DNA of 64,000 nucleotides from an uncultured Bacteroidota bacterium. Its GTDB lineage: Bacteria; Bacteroidota; Bacteroidia; Bacteroidales; WCHB1-69. A program made the translations under genes and the position numbers. Position 1 is the stretch's first letter, and each line of letters begins with the position of its first letter. The stretch spans positions 42,163 through 106,162 of the forward strand of contig CADADB010000008.1 in the NCBI GenBank assembly GCA_902786595.1. The letters are read 5' to 3'. This document shows positions 1,340 to 55,870 of the stretch, in pieces. Below the pieces are notes generated by a model that was not told the DNA's origin, did no database searches, and saw nothing but the letters and a program-made list of their open reading frames with translations.

Positions 1340-3385
1340 ATGGAAGAGAAGACCCCCACCCCGCAGGAGCGCATCGACCGCCTCATACAGGAAATCAACC
1401 GGCACAACTACCAGTATTACATGCTGGACAACCCCACGATTTCGGACTACGATTTCGACCAGCTGTTGCAGCAACTCATTGACCTTGAGGCCGCTTATCC
1501 CGAACTGCGCCGTCCCGACAGTCCCACGCAGCGCGTGGGCGGTGAGGTGACGAAACACTTCCAAAGCGCGGCGCACCTATACCCGATGCAGTCGTTGGGC
1601 AACACCTACTCGCAGGAGGACCTCACCGAGTTCGACCGCCGTGTGCGCGAACTCCTCGCCGCCTCCCCCGAGTACGTCTGCGAGCTCAAATACGACGGCG
1701 TGGCCATCAGTCTGATCTACGAGAACGGCGTGTTAGTGCGTGCGGTGACCCGTGGCGACGGCACCCGCGGCGACGTGGTGACCGCCAACGTGCGCACCAT
1801 CCGCACCATTCCGCTGCAGTTGCAGGGCGACTTCCCGCCACTCATCGAGGTGCGCGGCGAGATCATCATGCCGTTCAGCAGCTTCGAGCAGCTCAACGCC
1901 GAGCGCGAGGAGATAGGGGAAGCCCCCTTTGCCAACCCGCGCAATGCGGCCTCCGGAAGCCTCAAACTGCAGGATTCCGCTGAAGTCGCCAAACGCGGCC
2001 TCGATTTCAAACTCTACTTCGGTCTTGGTGAGCAACTGCCCGGAAGCAACCACTTTGACCGCCTGCTGAAACTTCACGAGTGGGGATTCCGCAAGCCCGA
2101 CGTGATGGAGAAAGTCGCCGACCTCAACGGAGTTTACGACTTCCTGCACACGTGGGACGAGAAGCGCAAAACACTCCCCTACCCGATTGACGGCGTCGTC
2201 ATCAAGGTCAACGACTTTGAACAGCAACGGCAGGTGGGAGCCACGGCCAAGAGTCCGCGCTGGGCCATCGCCTACAAATTCAAGGCCGAGCGGGTCTCCA
2301 CGAAACTGCTAAGCGTTGATTTCCAGGTGGGCAGGACCGGTATCATCACACCAGTGGCGAACCTCAGCCCCGTCTCTTTGGCAGGAACGGTCGTGAAGCG
2401 AGCCACCCTCAACAACCGCGACTTCATGACGGAGATGGACATCCGCGAGGGCGACAGTCTCTTCGTGGAGAAGGGCGGTGAAATCATCCCCAAAATCGTG
2501 GGAGTCGATACTGACAAGCGGCTCCCCGACGCACAACGGGTGCCTTTCATCACGCACTGTCCTGTCTGCGGCACCGAGCTGCAACAGGCGGAGGGCGAAG
2601 CGGGTGTCTTCTGTCCCAACGCCGACCACTGCGCCCCACAGATCAAAGGCCGTCTGGAGCATTTCATCGCCCGCAAGGCCATGAACATCGACTCCCTCGG
2701 AGAAGGCAAAATCGACATGCTTTTCGCCAACGGGTTGGTGAAAAACAGTGCAGACCTTTATTCGTTAACTTACGAGCAACTCTTTGGTTTGGAGAAGGTT
2801 ATTGAAGACGAGAACGGCAAGACCAAGACGCTCTCCTTCCGCGAGAAGACCGTGCAGAACATCCTGGCGGGCATCGAAGCGTCGAAGCAGGTACCGTTCG
2901 AGCGTGTGCTCTTCGCCTTGGGTATCCGTTTCGTGGGTGAGGTGACGGCCAAGAAACTCGCCCGCCATTTCGAGACGATGGACGCCGTGGCCAACGCCCC
3001 GAAGGAGGAACTGATGACCGTGGAGGACGTGGGCGAGCGCGTAGCCGACAGCATTATCGACTACTTCAACAACACCGAAAATCTGGAAATCCTCATGCGC
3101 CTGCGCGAAGCCGGACTGCAATTCGAAATTAACAAAGAGCAGCATCAGCCGGTGTCTCAGAAACTTGCAGGCCAAAGCATCGTGGTGAGCGGCGTCTTCA
3201 CCGTTCCCCGCGACACCATCAAGGAGCTCGTCGAGCAGAACGGCGGCAAGAACGTCTCCTCCATCTCGAAAAACACCTCCTTCGTCCTCGCCGGCGAGAA
3301 AATGGGGCCGGAGAAGCGGAAGAAGGCGGAAGCGTTAGGAATTCCGATTGTGTCGGAGGAGGAGTTCTGGACGATGATACGATGA
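1340..3385 (+). CDS. ligA: NAD-dependent DNA ligase LigA
   Basis: Seals nicks in duplex DNA using NAD+ during replication and repair in the cytoplasm. The 681-residue length is normal. Domains in order: Ia (YxxD-type NAD-binding helices, residues 10-60), adenylation domain with the nucleotidyl-lysine in KYDG (Lys117), OB fold (about 315-400), a four-cysteine zinc finger (CPVCGTEL ... CPNADHC, about 408-432), helix-hairpin-helix repeats, and a C-terminal BRCT domain ([12 protein letters not shown]). The start has a promoter box 17 bases upstream. The last codons (ACG ATG ATA CGA TGA) are already inside an 8-bp tandem array, so the repeat supplies the stop. It is a single gene between a repeat and a convergent lipoprotein. 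Confidence 0.98.
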
Positions 3386-3430
3386 TACGATGATACGATA
3401 AGACGATGATACGATAAGACGATGAATAAG
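3371..3430 (+). repeat. 8-bp stop-codon array at the 3' end of ligA
   Basis: Seven units of acgatgat/acgataag. Positions 5-7 of the units read TGA, TGA, TGA, TAA, TGA, TAA, TGA. The ligA stop (3383-3385) is the TGA of the second unit. Confidence 0.9.
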
Positions 3431-3455
3431 AAAATGGGAAGGAGATACCTTTCCC

Positions 3456-3487
3456 ATTCTTAATTCTTAATTCTTAATTCTTAATTC
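3456..3487 (-). repeat. 7-bp array (minus GAATTAA) holding the lipoprotein stop
   Basis: About 4.5 copies of GAATTAA on the minus strand. The lipoprotein frame runs through it and codes ELRIKN before reaching an in-frame TAA at 3469-3467. Confidence 0.9.
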
Positions 3488-4279
3488 GGAAAGGGTGAAG
3501 CCGCCGTCGCCGGTGAGGGTGACGCGTGCAGAAATGGTGGGCATGTCGTCGTAATGCAGCACCTTGCCGGTCACGAAGTTCACACCGGGAATCACGTGTA
3601 CGTAAAGATTCTCTCCGCTGATGTCGTAGGTCAGCTGTTCACCGATCCACACCACATCATCGTAAAAGTCACCCATGTCCTTTATGGTGTTTGTCACCGT
3701 AACCAGCTCTTTGTCACCGTCGTACAGGGTAATTTTCTCTCCGTCAACAGAATAATTCAGTCTTTCACATAATGCCTGCTGCATTTCGTAAGGGTCAATG
3801 GCCGCCGCCATGTAGGCATTGCCTTTCTCCCGGAAGCGCAACAAGCTGGGACGCTCGACAAGCACGCCGGTACCCTCCATCACTCCGCCGGTGATCCAAA
3901 GGTCGCCCGAAACGGAATCATAACGGGCAGAAGGGTTGTTCCCATGACGGAAATCGGGGAAGGCCGTCGCATAACCTTTGTTGACCACCACAATGCCGAA
4001 TCCTTCTGATGACTGGTCCTCGATGGCACGAATCAAACTCCATACACTTACATTGGACACGGTATCTTTCAAAATACTCTCATAGCAGCTGTCAAGCACA
4101 TGCCTGTTTATCGTGGCTTCCACGATTTCAGGGGCATTCAGAGAGCCAATGGGGTTTTCCAACACACCCTTCACGGGTTTGATTTCCACTTTTTTCTTGC
4201 CTTTGCAAGAGACAGCAACCACACCGCACATCAATATCGCGGCAATCAAAAGACAAACAGGTTTTCTCATTTTTTTCAT
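3467..4279 (-). CDS. Lipoprotein of unknown function
   Basis: A protein of about 270 residues with a lipoprotein signal peptide (MKKMRKPVCLLIAAILMCG, lipobox VAVSC) and a lysine-rich spacer after the cysteine. It is probably anchored in the outer membrane or periplasm. The rest is a soluble mixed alpha/beta sequence with no motif I recognise. I chose the ATG at 4279. An upstream TTG at 4291 is possible, but the ATG gives a standard signal peptide. A TAnnTTTG box lies at 4354-4361, divergent from the fucosidase. The last six residues (ELRIKN) are encoded by a heptamer array, so the natural C-terminus may have been shaped by the repeat. Confidence 0.75.
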   Translation of the reverse strand: MKKMRKPVCLLIAAILMCGVVAVSCKGKKKVEIKPVKGVLENPIGSLNAPEIVEATINRHVLDSCYESILKDTVSNVSVWSLIRAIEDQSSEGFGIVVVNKGYATAFPDFRHGNNPSARYDSVSGDLWITGGVMEGTGVLVERPSLLRFREKGNAYMAAAIDPYEMQQALCERLNYSVDGEKITLYDGDKELVTVTNTIKDMGDFYDDVVWIGEQLTYDISGENLYVHVIPGVNFVTGKVLHYDDMPTISARVTLTGDGGFTLSELRIKN

Positions 4280-4353
4280 TATTTCAAACAATTTTTATAA
4301 AACGCTATCCGACTGAATTATACAATTCTGGAGAAATCTTTAACGAATTATGG

Positions 4354-4361
4354 CAAAAGTA
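4354..4361 (-). promoter_or_regulatory. -7 promoter box (TACTTTTG) for the lipoprotein
   Basis: Minus-strand TACTTTTGCC, about 75 bases before the lipoprotein ATG. Confidence 0.5.
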
Positions 4362-4387
4362 AACAAATTCCGAATACGAAAATTATG

Positions 4388-4395
4388 TACTTTCG
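4388..4395 (+). promoter_or_regulatory. -7 promoter box (TACTTTCG) for the fucosidase
   Basis: TACTTTCGCAC is one base off TAnnTTTG and sits 22 bases before the chosen fucosidase ATG (4418). It overlaps the alternative ATG at 4385, which argues against that start. Confidence 0.5.
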
Positions 4396-4417
4396 CACTT
4401 TCAATATAAATTTCGTA

Positions 4418-55232: not shown

Positions 55233-55240
55233 CACTTTTT

Positions 55241-55320
55241 TAGCTATTAGCTATTGGCTTTTAGCTATTGGCTGTTGTTGATTTTGAAAGCCAAAGCTAA
55301 AAGCCAAAAGCCAAAAGCCG
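55241..55320 (-). repeat. GGCTTTT/AGCTAAT heptamer arrays forming an inverted pair
   Basis: After the HhH gene stop the minus strand has four GGCTTTT-type units, then AGCCAAT/AGCTAAA units in the opposite sense. GGCTTTTAGCT (55256-55266) and AGCTAAAAGCC (55295-55305) are exact inverted copies and could form an 11-bp stem. Confidence 0.8.
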
Positions 55321-55321
55321 A

Positions 55322-55729
55322 CTAATACTCCATCATGGGTTCAAGCTCCTTGGCCTGGTCGATCATCTTCTGGAGTTCGGTGGCGGTGGGAACACGACCC
55401 ACGAGATGTTTCTGATCGTTAATCTCGTTCATCTTGGCGACGAGTTTCTCGGCCACGCGGTGGCGGAATTCCTTCACGGTGTCCACACCGGCGGCCTCAA
55501 GCAGTTCGGAGAATTGCGGCCCCACACCGTTGATGCGCATCAGATCAGCATGGTTGGCCCAAGTGAGCACCAATTTCGGGGAGATGCCGGTCTTCTCCGC
55601 CAAGGCGGCTCGTCCGGCGGGTTTCTTGGCGGCTTCCAACAGCTCTTCCACCGTGTTGATGCCTGCTTCCGTCAATTTCGCGGCGTAAACATCGCCGATT
55701 CCTTCTACGTCAATAATTTTGTAACTCAT
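55322..55729 (-). CDS. Helix-hairpin-helix protein (DUF4332-like)
   Basis: A 135-residue protein made of tandem helix-hairpin-helix motifs: VEGIGDVYAAKLTEAGINTV near the start and INGVGPQFSELLEAAGVDTV near residue 70, with a further helical end. This is the DUF4332 arrangement, which probably binds DNA or proteins without sequence specificity. The start is the ATG of MSYKII (55729). It has a promoter box at 55758-55765 and is divergent from the thioesterase. Confidence 0.85.
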   Translation of the reverse strand: MSYKIIDVEGIGDVYAAKLTEAGINTVEELLEAAKKPAGRAALAEKTGISPKLVLTWANHADLMRINGVGPQFSELLEAAGVDTVKEFRHRVAEKLVAKMNEINDQKHLVGRVPTATELQKMIDQAKELEPMMEY

Positions 55730-55757
55730 AACCATTTAATTTTTAAAATTCCGACCG

Positions 55758-55765
55758 CAAAGATA
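55758..55765 (-). promoter_or_regulatory. -7 promoter box (TATCTTTG) for the HhH protein
   Basis: Minus-strand TATCTTTGCGG, 28 bases before the ATG. Confidence 0.55.
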
Positions 55766-55794
55766 CATTTTTCTTAATATCTTGCAAAATTTTA

Positions 55795-55802
55795 TATTTT
55801 TG
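55795..55802 (+). promoter_or_regulatory. -7 promoter box (TATTTTTG) for the thioesterase
   Basis: TATTTTTGCCGCG, 71 bases before the thioesterase ATG. The array lies in the leader. Confidence 0.55.
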
Positions 55803-55820
55803 CCGCGCTTTTTTCAACTA

Positions 55821-55870
55821 CCCTAACCCTTAAACCCTAACCCATAACCCATAACCCATAACCCATAACC
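55821..55870 (+). repeat. 7-bp CCCATAA array abutting the thioesterase start
   Basis: CCCTAA, CCCTTAAA, CCCTAA then four CCCATAA units and CCATTATG with the start codon. TAA in each unit on the gene's strand. Confidence 0.9.

Follow-up and report, generated by a model that had tools for sequence, protein, structure and literature searches.

Tandem arrays of short tandemly repeated repetitive (STRR) heptanucleotides are abundant in the intergenic regions of heterocystous cyanobacteria, and slippage has been proposed to account for them. A survey of long simple sequence repeats (LSSRs) by Mrazek in 2007 reportedly also found abundant intergenic arrays of heptanucleotides, again with slippage as the proposed cause. 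Other dispersed intergenic elements at gene ends are the palindromes of the repetitive extragenic palindromic (REP) and bacterial interspersed mosaic element (BIME) type, which go together with RAYT (Y1) transposases. The accessible part of Rehm et al. 2015 (PMC4692102) describes GGGNATC and GGGGAYT heptamers in Xanthomonas and Nostoc, which are dispersed and intergenic and whose function is left open there. According to the same part of that paper (PMC4692102), arrays of four units are preferred, the repeats lie antisense near starts or in sense near stops, stop overlap included, and their position is largely kept among species while length and sequence vary. TAACTGA direct repeats are reported from Beggiatoaceae, some cyanobacteria and five Bacteroidetes in the accessible part of MacGregor 2015 (PMC4679880). 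Here, we describe tandem arrays, mostly of 7-bp units, in the gaps between genes of an uncultured Bacteroidota bacterium, starting from a stretch of 64,000 nucleotides (assembly GCA_902786595.1, contig CADADB010000008.1, positions 42,163 to 106,162), referred to as the window.

We give a probability of roughly 0.5 to the reading that the arrays belong with the dispersed and oriented heptamer repeats known from Xanthomonas and Nostoc, as opposed to stop-codon cassettes, and that one family among them, GGTTATD (F1; full form AAT(GGTTATD)3GGTTATTGAAGC), would be a sequence-specific gene-edge element. Arrays were called with Tandem Repeats Finder (TRF) at a score of at least 45 and, unless stated otherwise, a period of 6–8, in the 64-kb window, in 784 kb and then in 1,184 kb of the source genome (G000; 2.84 Mb). 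The comparison genome was that of a sister species (G020; 395 kb sampled). Genes were called with our own dicodon scorer, independently of any annotation. The outward strand was defined as the sense strand after a stop and the antisense strand before a start, and the stop content per unit was compared with that of letter-shuffled units as a composition control. Fifteen tRNAs, a small sample, were considered as possible array hosts. The closest named relatives of the window's ligA gene (91–99% identity) were metagenome-assembled genomes labelled Bacteroidales or Bacteroidetes, many of them named after rumen, omasum or abomasum.

The tandem arrays that a sequence-only reading of the window had noticed are real: TRF found 24 of period 6–8 (21 of period 7, two of period 6 and one of period 8), all of which sit in gaps or span a gene edge according to our gene calls. 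Eleven overlap a stop codon, and four more start 0–6 nt past one. Across 1,184 kb, period 7 accounted for 206 of the 343 arrays of period 5–30, and arrays of period 6–8 were rarely intragenic (9/241 more than 80% within genes), whereas 36/46 arrays with a period of nine or a larger multiple of three were mostly within genes. The proposed concentration at gene ends held as well, with 119 arrays lying over a stop or at most 3 nt from one (stops of 901 genes examined). In the first 384 kb, an array with a score of at least 50 was present in 54/126 tandem, 10/23 convergent and 6/32 divergent gaps of 60 nt or more. The impression of a different unit almost everywhere did not survive, as 39/84 unit classes occurred more than once in 784 kb, with families mostly in one orientation. 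Recurrent outward units included GGTTATD, TGAATGN, TTRGCTD, ACGATGAR, TAATKGA, GACKTRR, TTAAGGK, TTTRCGR, YAGGCAA and GAATTAA; 111/205 arrays at most 16 nt from a gene edge had neither GG nor CC in their unit.

Members of one family turn up in gaps unrelated to each other, and both before and after genes they tend to face away from the gene closest to them. Among array pairs from different gaps that share sequence (both arrays at most 16 nt from an edge), outward orientation agreed in 705/775, compared to 387.8±13.8 under random flips, and this agreement holds independently of base skew. The outward share was 47/51 for GGTTATN, 48/53 for RGCTNTT, 16/16 for TGAATGN, 20/22 for TAATKGA (one at a contig edge), 19/23 for ACGATGAR, 12/18 for TTTRCGR and 1/4 for TTGAACT/RGTTCAA. 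Families with GG pointed outward at stops (47/52) and at starts (39/42), and GG-less families did so at stops (85/89).

Base composition followed the same polarity. The outward strand of the arrays contained 0.05–0.10 C and 0.22–0.28 G in all but one of the ten position classes distinguished in the two genomes; only arrays of the source genome lying over 16 nt away from a stop deviated (C 0.22, G 0.13). Tandem gaps of both genomes had more G than C on the sense strand in 76/82 stop-overlapping arrays and in 24/24 arrays at most 5 nt past a stop, and more C than G in 44/56 arrays at most 30 nt before a start. The ratio of G>C to C>G arrays was 14:2 (nearer the left gene) and 1:13 (nearer the right gene) in convergent gaps, and 8:3 and 2:12, respectively, in divergent gaps. 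Over 1,184 kb, G exceeded C outward in 123/134 arrays at most 16 nt from a stop and in 45/59 at most 16 nt from a start. A skew common to all gap DNA was rejected, because non-array gap DNA is hardly skewed (GC skew merely −0.03 to +0.10). Separate selection at the two ends, with stops needed at the 3' end and start codons avoided at the 5' end, is disfavoured, since start codons on the inward strand are depleted in stop-side arrays too (3/80 vs. 10.5±2.6 expected), where such selection should not matter; it might still act on the GG-less families. Rho loading through YC dinucleotides of the inward strand was also discarded, as it gave z=5.0 across 178 arrays but z=2.1 across 66 distinct units.

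Written out, F1 reads AAT-GGTTAT-D-GGTTAT-D-GGTTAT-D-GGTTAT-TGAAGC, with a conserved head (AAT) and tail (TGAAGC). It was found 57 times with at least two units in 1,184 kb, and 38 of these elements had four units. The D letter was G in 65, T in 45, A in 33 and C in one of 144 cases. The gene behind the AAT end was the nearer one in 52/57 elements (35 antisense before a start, 17 in sense after a stop; five otherwise), with the head at a median of 2 nt (3' end) or 9 nt (5' end) from this gene and the tail about 100 nt from the next one. Matches to the four-unit consensus in 784 kb and the sister species were bimodal, with 43 at two or fewer mismatches, none at three, eight at four to six and background thereafter.

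For the divergence test, ortholog targets were not picked for the presence of F1. The 137 query elements yielded 71 comparisons. In 36 of these the element aligned without indels, and these were used; the other 35, with indels in the element, were set aside. Differences were found at 3/852 positions of the core, 3/108 of the AAT head, 4/216 of the tail, 23/106 of D and 272/2930 of the near flank. All six core bases are conserved, GG and TTAT about equally, which argues for reading of the sequence and makes a quadruplex alone insufficient. A previous set, biased because its targets had mostly been fetched with the F1 pattern, gave 4/1194 for the core and 36/148 for D; ortholog D letters were the same in 77 and different in 34 cases in a set with the same bias and some misplaced segments. 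With this split between a near-unchanging core and a free seventh base across species, F1 offers a definite starting point in the search for a protein that binds it. In the literature, F1 strings turned up in four papers, whose titles concern other matters.

A promoter-like motif, TAnnTTTG, was present at 5' ends in 9/31 gaps with F1 compared to 346/619 without (P=0.005), so many F1 gaps may lie inside operons. Where it occurred together with F1, it lay upstream of the element in six gaps and between the element and the start in five, both being the case in two. A three-unit F1 pattern was detected in 22/40 genomes of the genus (source genome included), with 1 to 203 overlapping matches, and in 6/119 genomes sampled from the order, the source genome among them. 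Samples of 59–100 kb each from two other Bacteroidales (G045, G118) and three F1-free congeners (G145, G151, G004) contained 0.19–0.57 arrays per kb of gap, and samples of the same survey from two F1-bearing congeners contained 1.40 (G152) and 0.69 (G013), all of these values coming from few arrays and from gene calls with small training sets. The G118 genome held 33 matches to the reversed control pattern TATTGGNTATTGGNTATTGG and none to GGTTATN, possibly reflecting another heptamer family.

The stop codons that had first drawn attention to the arrays were re-examined against shuffled units. Over 1,184 kb, units of period 7/8 carried a coding-strand stop in clear excess when the array overlapped the stop of an open reading frame (ORF; 69/80 vs. 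50.0±3.5), but not when it lay 0–16 nt past one (24/41 vs. 22.9±2.6), so that the claimed enrichment per unit stands for the ORF's own stop only; near starts, 18/48 units had a stop on the outward strand (25.4±2.9 shuffled). When 784 kb and the sister species were taken together, GG-less units reached 62/64 on the stop (46.5±3.3 shuffled) and 14/16 at 0–16 nt past it (11.1±1.6), the closest to an exception from the lack of excess past stops, and GG units reached 16/26 (10.0±1.9) and 11/24 (13.5±2.0), respectively. The sister species alone showed a weaker excess in stop-touching arrays (26/34 vs. 22.2±2.3). Stops in several frames were confirmed: 61 of the 85 stop-touching arrays in 784 kb covered all three frames, compared to 77/451 control genes (50 nt past the stop), and so did 43/50 when the first 50 nt of arrays of at least 35 nt were counted. 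The statement that the stop triplet is never replaced by TGG proved to be a small-sample effect of the four arrays considered, since TGG made up 73/518 T-R-R triplets and 40/154 of those in polymorphic T-R-R columns of the same 85 arrays. TGA was in excess (229 vs. 78.8 letter-shuffled); the ACGATGA and TGAATG families include this triplet.

Arrays of the window are listed below, for some of them with the state of the corresponding site in the sister species.

3370..3425, plus strand: 8-bp array ACGATGAT spanning the ligA stop; the ligA end was compared among relatives.
3456..3487, minus strand: 7-bp GAATTAA array spanning the stop at 3467; in the sister species another, GAGACTT-like family.
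6254..6310, plus strand: TTAAGGG array spanning the fucosidase stop; in the sister species the GAATGAA family.
6894..6923, minus strand: F1, (GGTTATD)4, starting 4 nt past the stop of a gene whose end is at 6928; one unit fewer at the orthologous site of the sister species.
9365..9413, minus strand: GACTTRR array spanning the stop of a Pyr_redox-type gene at 9410; in the sister species the ACGATGA family.
10432..10464, plus strand: distal array, an inverted copy of 10480–10514; one of the few hairpin pairs.
10480..10514, minus strand: GAGTTAA array spanning the stop of a CCG-domain gene at 10508.
15463..15510, plus strand: TTAAGGG array, antisense at the 5' end of the gene starting at 15463.
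15531..15597, minus strand: TGAATGY array on the stop of an aromatic amino acid lyase gene.
20388..20432, minus strand: GAATTAA array spanning the stop of an amine-oxidoreductase (CrtI-like) gene; in the sister species GTAGAAT.
32433..32479, minus strand: TAATTCA array on the DUF3298 stop, an exception with C>G; in the sister species a TAGTAAT-like family.
34644..34675, plus strand: F1, antisense, upstream of the gene starting at 34638; three D letters the same in the sister species.
43810..43872, plus strand: 6/13-bp AACTAT array; lies upstream of a gene with its start at 43805 and is a polarity exception.
43908..43937, minus strand: F1 abutting the stop of a sigma-70 family gene at 43938; identical in the sister species.
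44911..44955, minus strand: YAGGCAA array, 6 nt past the stop of a DUF3078 gene.
46053..46112, minus strand: GGACTGA array on the stop of an arginase-family gene; no array in the sister species.
49962..50029, minus strand: GACGTRA array spanning the stop of a FAD_syn (ribF-like) gene; the gap holds F1 instead in the sister species.
53206..53273, plus strand: TTTGCGR array, antisense to the gene that starts at 53077 and in the gap on its upstream side; being closer to the stop at 53323, it counts as an exception under the nearest-edge rule.
53289..53327, minus strand: TGAATGA array spanning the radical-SAM stop; in the sister species the GAATTAA family.
54288..54317, plus strand: GACTTA array on the far side of tRNA-Glu, upstream of a gene with its start at 54276.
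55238..55277, plus strand: TTAGCTA array, inverted partner of 55287–55319.
55287..55319, minus strand: TTGGCTT array, 2 nt past the stop of a DUF4332 gene.
55820..55870, minus strand: F1-derived, longer run of GGTTATG and variants, antisense upstream of the gene at 55874; in the sister species a four-unit F1.

Two of the gene ends differ from the description in the sequence-only reading. The gene taken for rpoN (43938–44774) encodes a member of the sigma-70 family (regions 1.2, 2, 3 and 4) according to Pfam, and its stop adjoins the array instead of lying inside it. The esterase stop (8177) does lie inside an array, but one too weak (TRF score 34) to reach the threshold of 45. At the C-terminus of ligA, many of the relatives shown have an M-I type motif, and the ACGATGA array at this gene end (3350–3425) resembles ligA's own last codons, which may reflect local seeding. 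Further downstream, an ORF of 2322 aa (56662–63630) contains a 153-bp tandem repeat (61220–61815; 3.9 copies, 75% matches); our guess is that it encodes a large repetitive surface protein.

Syntenic gaps of the source genome and the sister species (n=75) held arrays in both genomes in 30 cases, in the source genome only in six, in the sister species only in three and in neither in 36. For the 49 source-genome arrays in such gaps, the sister species had the same family in 32, a different array in 11 and none in six; for the 28 arrays at most 3 nt from a gene edge, these numbers were 15, 10 and three. Inspection by eye of gaps in which the family had changed (6262, 9307, 20360, 32317, 49784 and 53077) revealed that homology breaks off at the stop codon or shortly ahead of it, so that the stop and the final codons were exchanged together with the array. 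Length differed between the two species in 19/27 conserved arrays, seven of them by whole units, and TRF edges may explain some of the others. A gap of ~1.08 kb elsewhere in the source genome (L105:8641-9760, contig C9) holds an uncalled minus-strand ORF between TAATTGA and TAATGGA arrays that point toward it, as if bordering an inserted gene; its product may resemble proteins of the four-helix-bundle (IVS) type. A dispersed palindrome, GGGGCGAAT..ATTCGCCCC, is present in 14 copies in 1,184 kb of the source genome, with a variant in the window gap 12755–12813, and it replaces the array in one orthologous gap of the sister species (L128 ~6.66–6.73 kb, contig C16).

It is highly improbable that the arrays were selected as a translational fail-safe whose all-frame stops catch readthrough or frameshifted ribosomes, a role that the sequence-only reading had put forward. 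Their three-frame stops and the slight surplus over shuffled units in GG-less arrays just past the stop would suit such a role, but past-stop arrays as a whole show no clear excess, TGG is common and not avoided overall, and GG-type arrays (F1 included) 0–3 nt past a stop have outward stops in 5/15 units vs. 8.4±1.6 shuffled. Moreover, the same families, equally C-poor outward, stand antisense before starts, where a stop does nothing. The stop codons are mostly a by-product of the C-poor outward strand, which makes them frequent, and arrays on stops nearly always hold one, presumably because an array that overwrote a stop without bringing its own would extend the protein. Once composition is controlled for, little is left of the argument for selection on readthrough, and such a control is needed before a translational safeguard is claimed for stop-rich repeats. 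G-quadruplex elements, formed by folding of four G-tracts of the outward strand and serving as marks of transcript starts or ends, are an unlikely explanation. They would fit the position law and four-unit preference shared with Xanthomonas and Nostoc (PMC4692102, accessible part), the avoidance of C at the D letter and the fact that the law holds at starts and stops for GG families but only at stops for GG-less ones. However, the tracts of F1 are only GG, its TTAT loop and its ends are about as conserved as GG, and 1.18 Mb contained only 20 four-tract G3 motifs. Since polarity at stops is equally strong in GG-less families, quadruplex folding cannot be the whole answer.

An RNA base-pairing network, with arrays in 3' untranslated regions (UTRs) pairing with complementary arrays of the same family in 5'UTRs, as hairpins in cis or in trans, is decidedly improbable. 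Although 154/164 GG-type pairs are complementary between 3' and 5' sides on the mRNA strand, and 12/125 stop-side arrays have an inverted partner within the next 120 nt (3.4 expected), the remaining 113 lack such a partner, and in 5/31 gaps the start codon is separated from F1 by the promoter-like motif. A reading as hairpins or terminators was rejected on the same grounds, the inverted same-family partner being enriched but lacking for most arrays. A few gaps do hold two inverted arrays of one family (window 9322–9413, 10432–10514 and 55238–55319; L048:12088-12200), and such pairs might fold into long AT-rich hairpins. Replication slippage alone, with an independent origin at every gene end and selection acting only against frame damage, is improbable, too. 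The rarity of period 6–8 within genes, where larger multiples of three are tolerated, the different lengths of orthologous arrays and the likeness of the ligA array to the last codons of ligA all speak for it. On the other hand, unrelated genes share families in one orientation, the core of F1 evolves slowly and the ends of F1 are fixed, although shared flanking ends have been seen for F1 only so far. The earlier proposal of slippage at gene ends thus captures the variation in length between species, but leaves the shared families and the conserved, non-periodic ends of F1 unexplained.

If the arrays are indeed oriented heptamer repeats, most families would turn over quickly, their arrays gaining and losing length by slippage and spreading as copies of arrays at other gene ends. 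An array that overwrites a stop would survive only if it brought a stop of its own, and period 7/8 together with a C-poor sense strand would make this likely. F1, by contrast, may owe its conservation to a sequence-specific factor that recognises GGTTAT, spaced by 7 bases, in double-stranded DNA; DNA is favoured over RNA as the target because F1 is found in either orientation to the transcript. Such a factor, bound to F1 at a gene edge, would probably set a transcription boundary. Omega, the ribbon-helix-helix repressor of a Gram-positive plasmid, binds heptads and is a precedent for proteins that read them unspaced. A wider proposal, which we consider tentative and rather unlikely, is that one Bacteroidales lineage uses F1 as a polar mark of gene boundaries, its four direct heptads being read as DNA by one or more undescribed proteins at transcription-unit edges. 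The Xanthomonas/Nostoc heptamers would then be convergent or related, quadruplex formation incidental and the other families decayed or competing marks.

Several points weigh against the interpretation of the arrays as outward-pointing repeats and of F1 as a sequence-specific element. The outward law is not universal, since families without GG or CC showed no polarity within 16 nt of starts (11/22 outward), and 3/42 GG-type arrays near starts as well as the AACTAT family break it without explanation; start positions are themselves uncertain in our gene calls. As to F1, the contrast between core and flank is ~25-fold, with optimistic P values (3e-27 for core vs. flank, 1.5e-4 for D vs. flank), the 36 aligned comparisons sharing loci and the query elements having had to be intact. 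Of the 35 comparisons with indels, 24 keep at least three units and 11 do not, so that the constraint lies more on sequence than on presence. The D letter diverges more quickly than the flanks, a hint at gain and loss of units, and copying of units could slow the change of the core; differing D letters within an array oppose fast homogenisation. Among the 40 genomes of the genus, neither Y1_Tnp nor RVT_1 emerged as a convincing driver of spreading. Y1_Tnp (PF01797) was found in 22/22 F1-bearing and 14/18 F1-free genomes (Fisher P=0.03; several genomes incomplete), the four genomes without it all lacking the F1 pattern, and RVT_1 in 7/22 and 2/18, respectively; a Y1 family might nevertheless drive the arrays.

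Among described systems, REP and BIME elements differ in being palindromes, whereas the arrays analysed here are direct repeats, and Y1_Tnp is found in 14/18 F1-free genomes of the genus as well as in all 22 with F1. Unlike in intrinsic terminators, the repeat is part of an inverted repeat in only 12/125 stop-side arrays. Compared with phase-variable repeats, lengths differ between species, and the adjoining genes of the window are mostly enzymes by Pfam name. The TAACTGA repeats, as described in the accessible part of the report on them (PMC4679880), are similar in being intergenic heptamer direct repeats near gene edges, with a patchy distribution over lineages and 7-nt indels between relatives; they differ in consisting of a single unit that, in a Beggiatoaceae genome, lies mostly just upstream of starts in sense. 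Tandem TAACTGA was absent from the 1,184,000 bases of the source genome. The closest relatives in architecture, judged from the accessible part of Rehm et al. 2015 (PMC4692102), are the G-rich heptamers of Xanthomonas and Nostoc, for which the outward law and the four-unit preference are already published. Both systems have 7-bp intergenic units and follow the outward position law (at starts, GG units only in our case), and the preference for four units is matched by F1 (38/57). The G3 tracts have no counterpart here, as F1 has GG only and three tandem GGGNATN pairs were found in 1.18 Mb. Relative to what that part of the paper describes, the present genome is distinguished by at least ten coexisting families, by edge arrays without GG or CC (111/205), by the fixed non-periodic ends and the free, C-avoiding seventh base of F1, and by arrays on stops that often belong to another family in the sister species. 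New here are thus the coexistence of at least ten families, the fact that over half of the arrays are GG-less, and an element, F1, with a conserved core; outward-pointing heptamers of the Xanthomonas/Nostoc type also fill the gene gaps of an uncultured rumen Bacteroidales genus.

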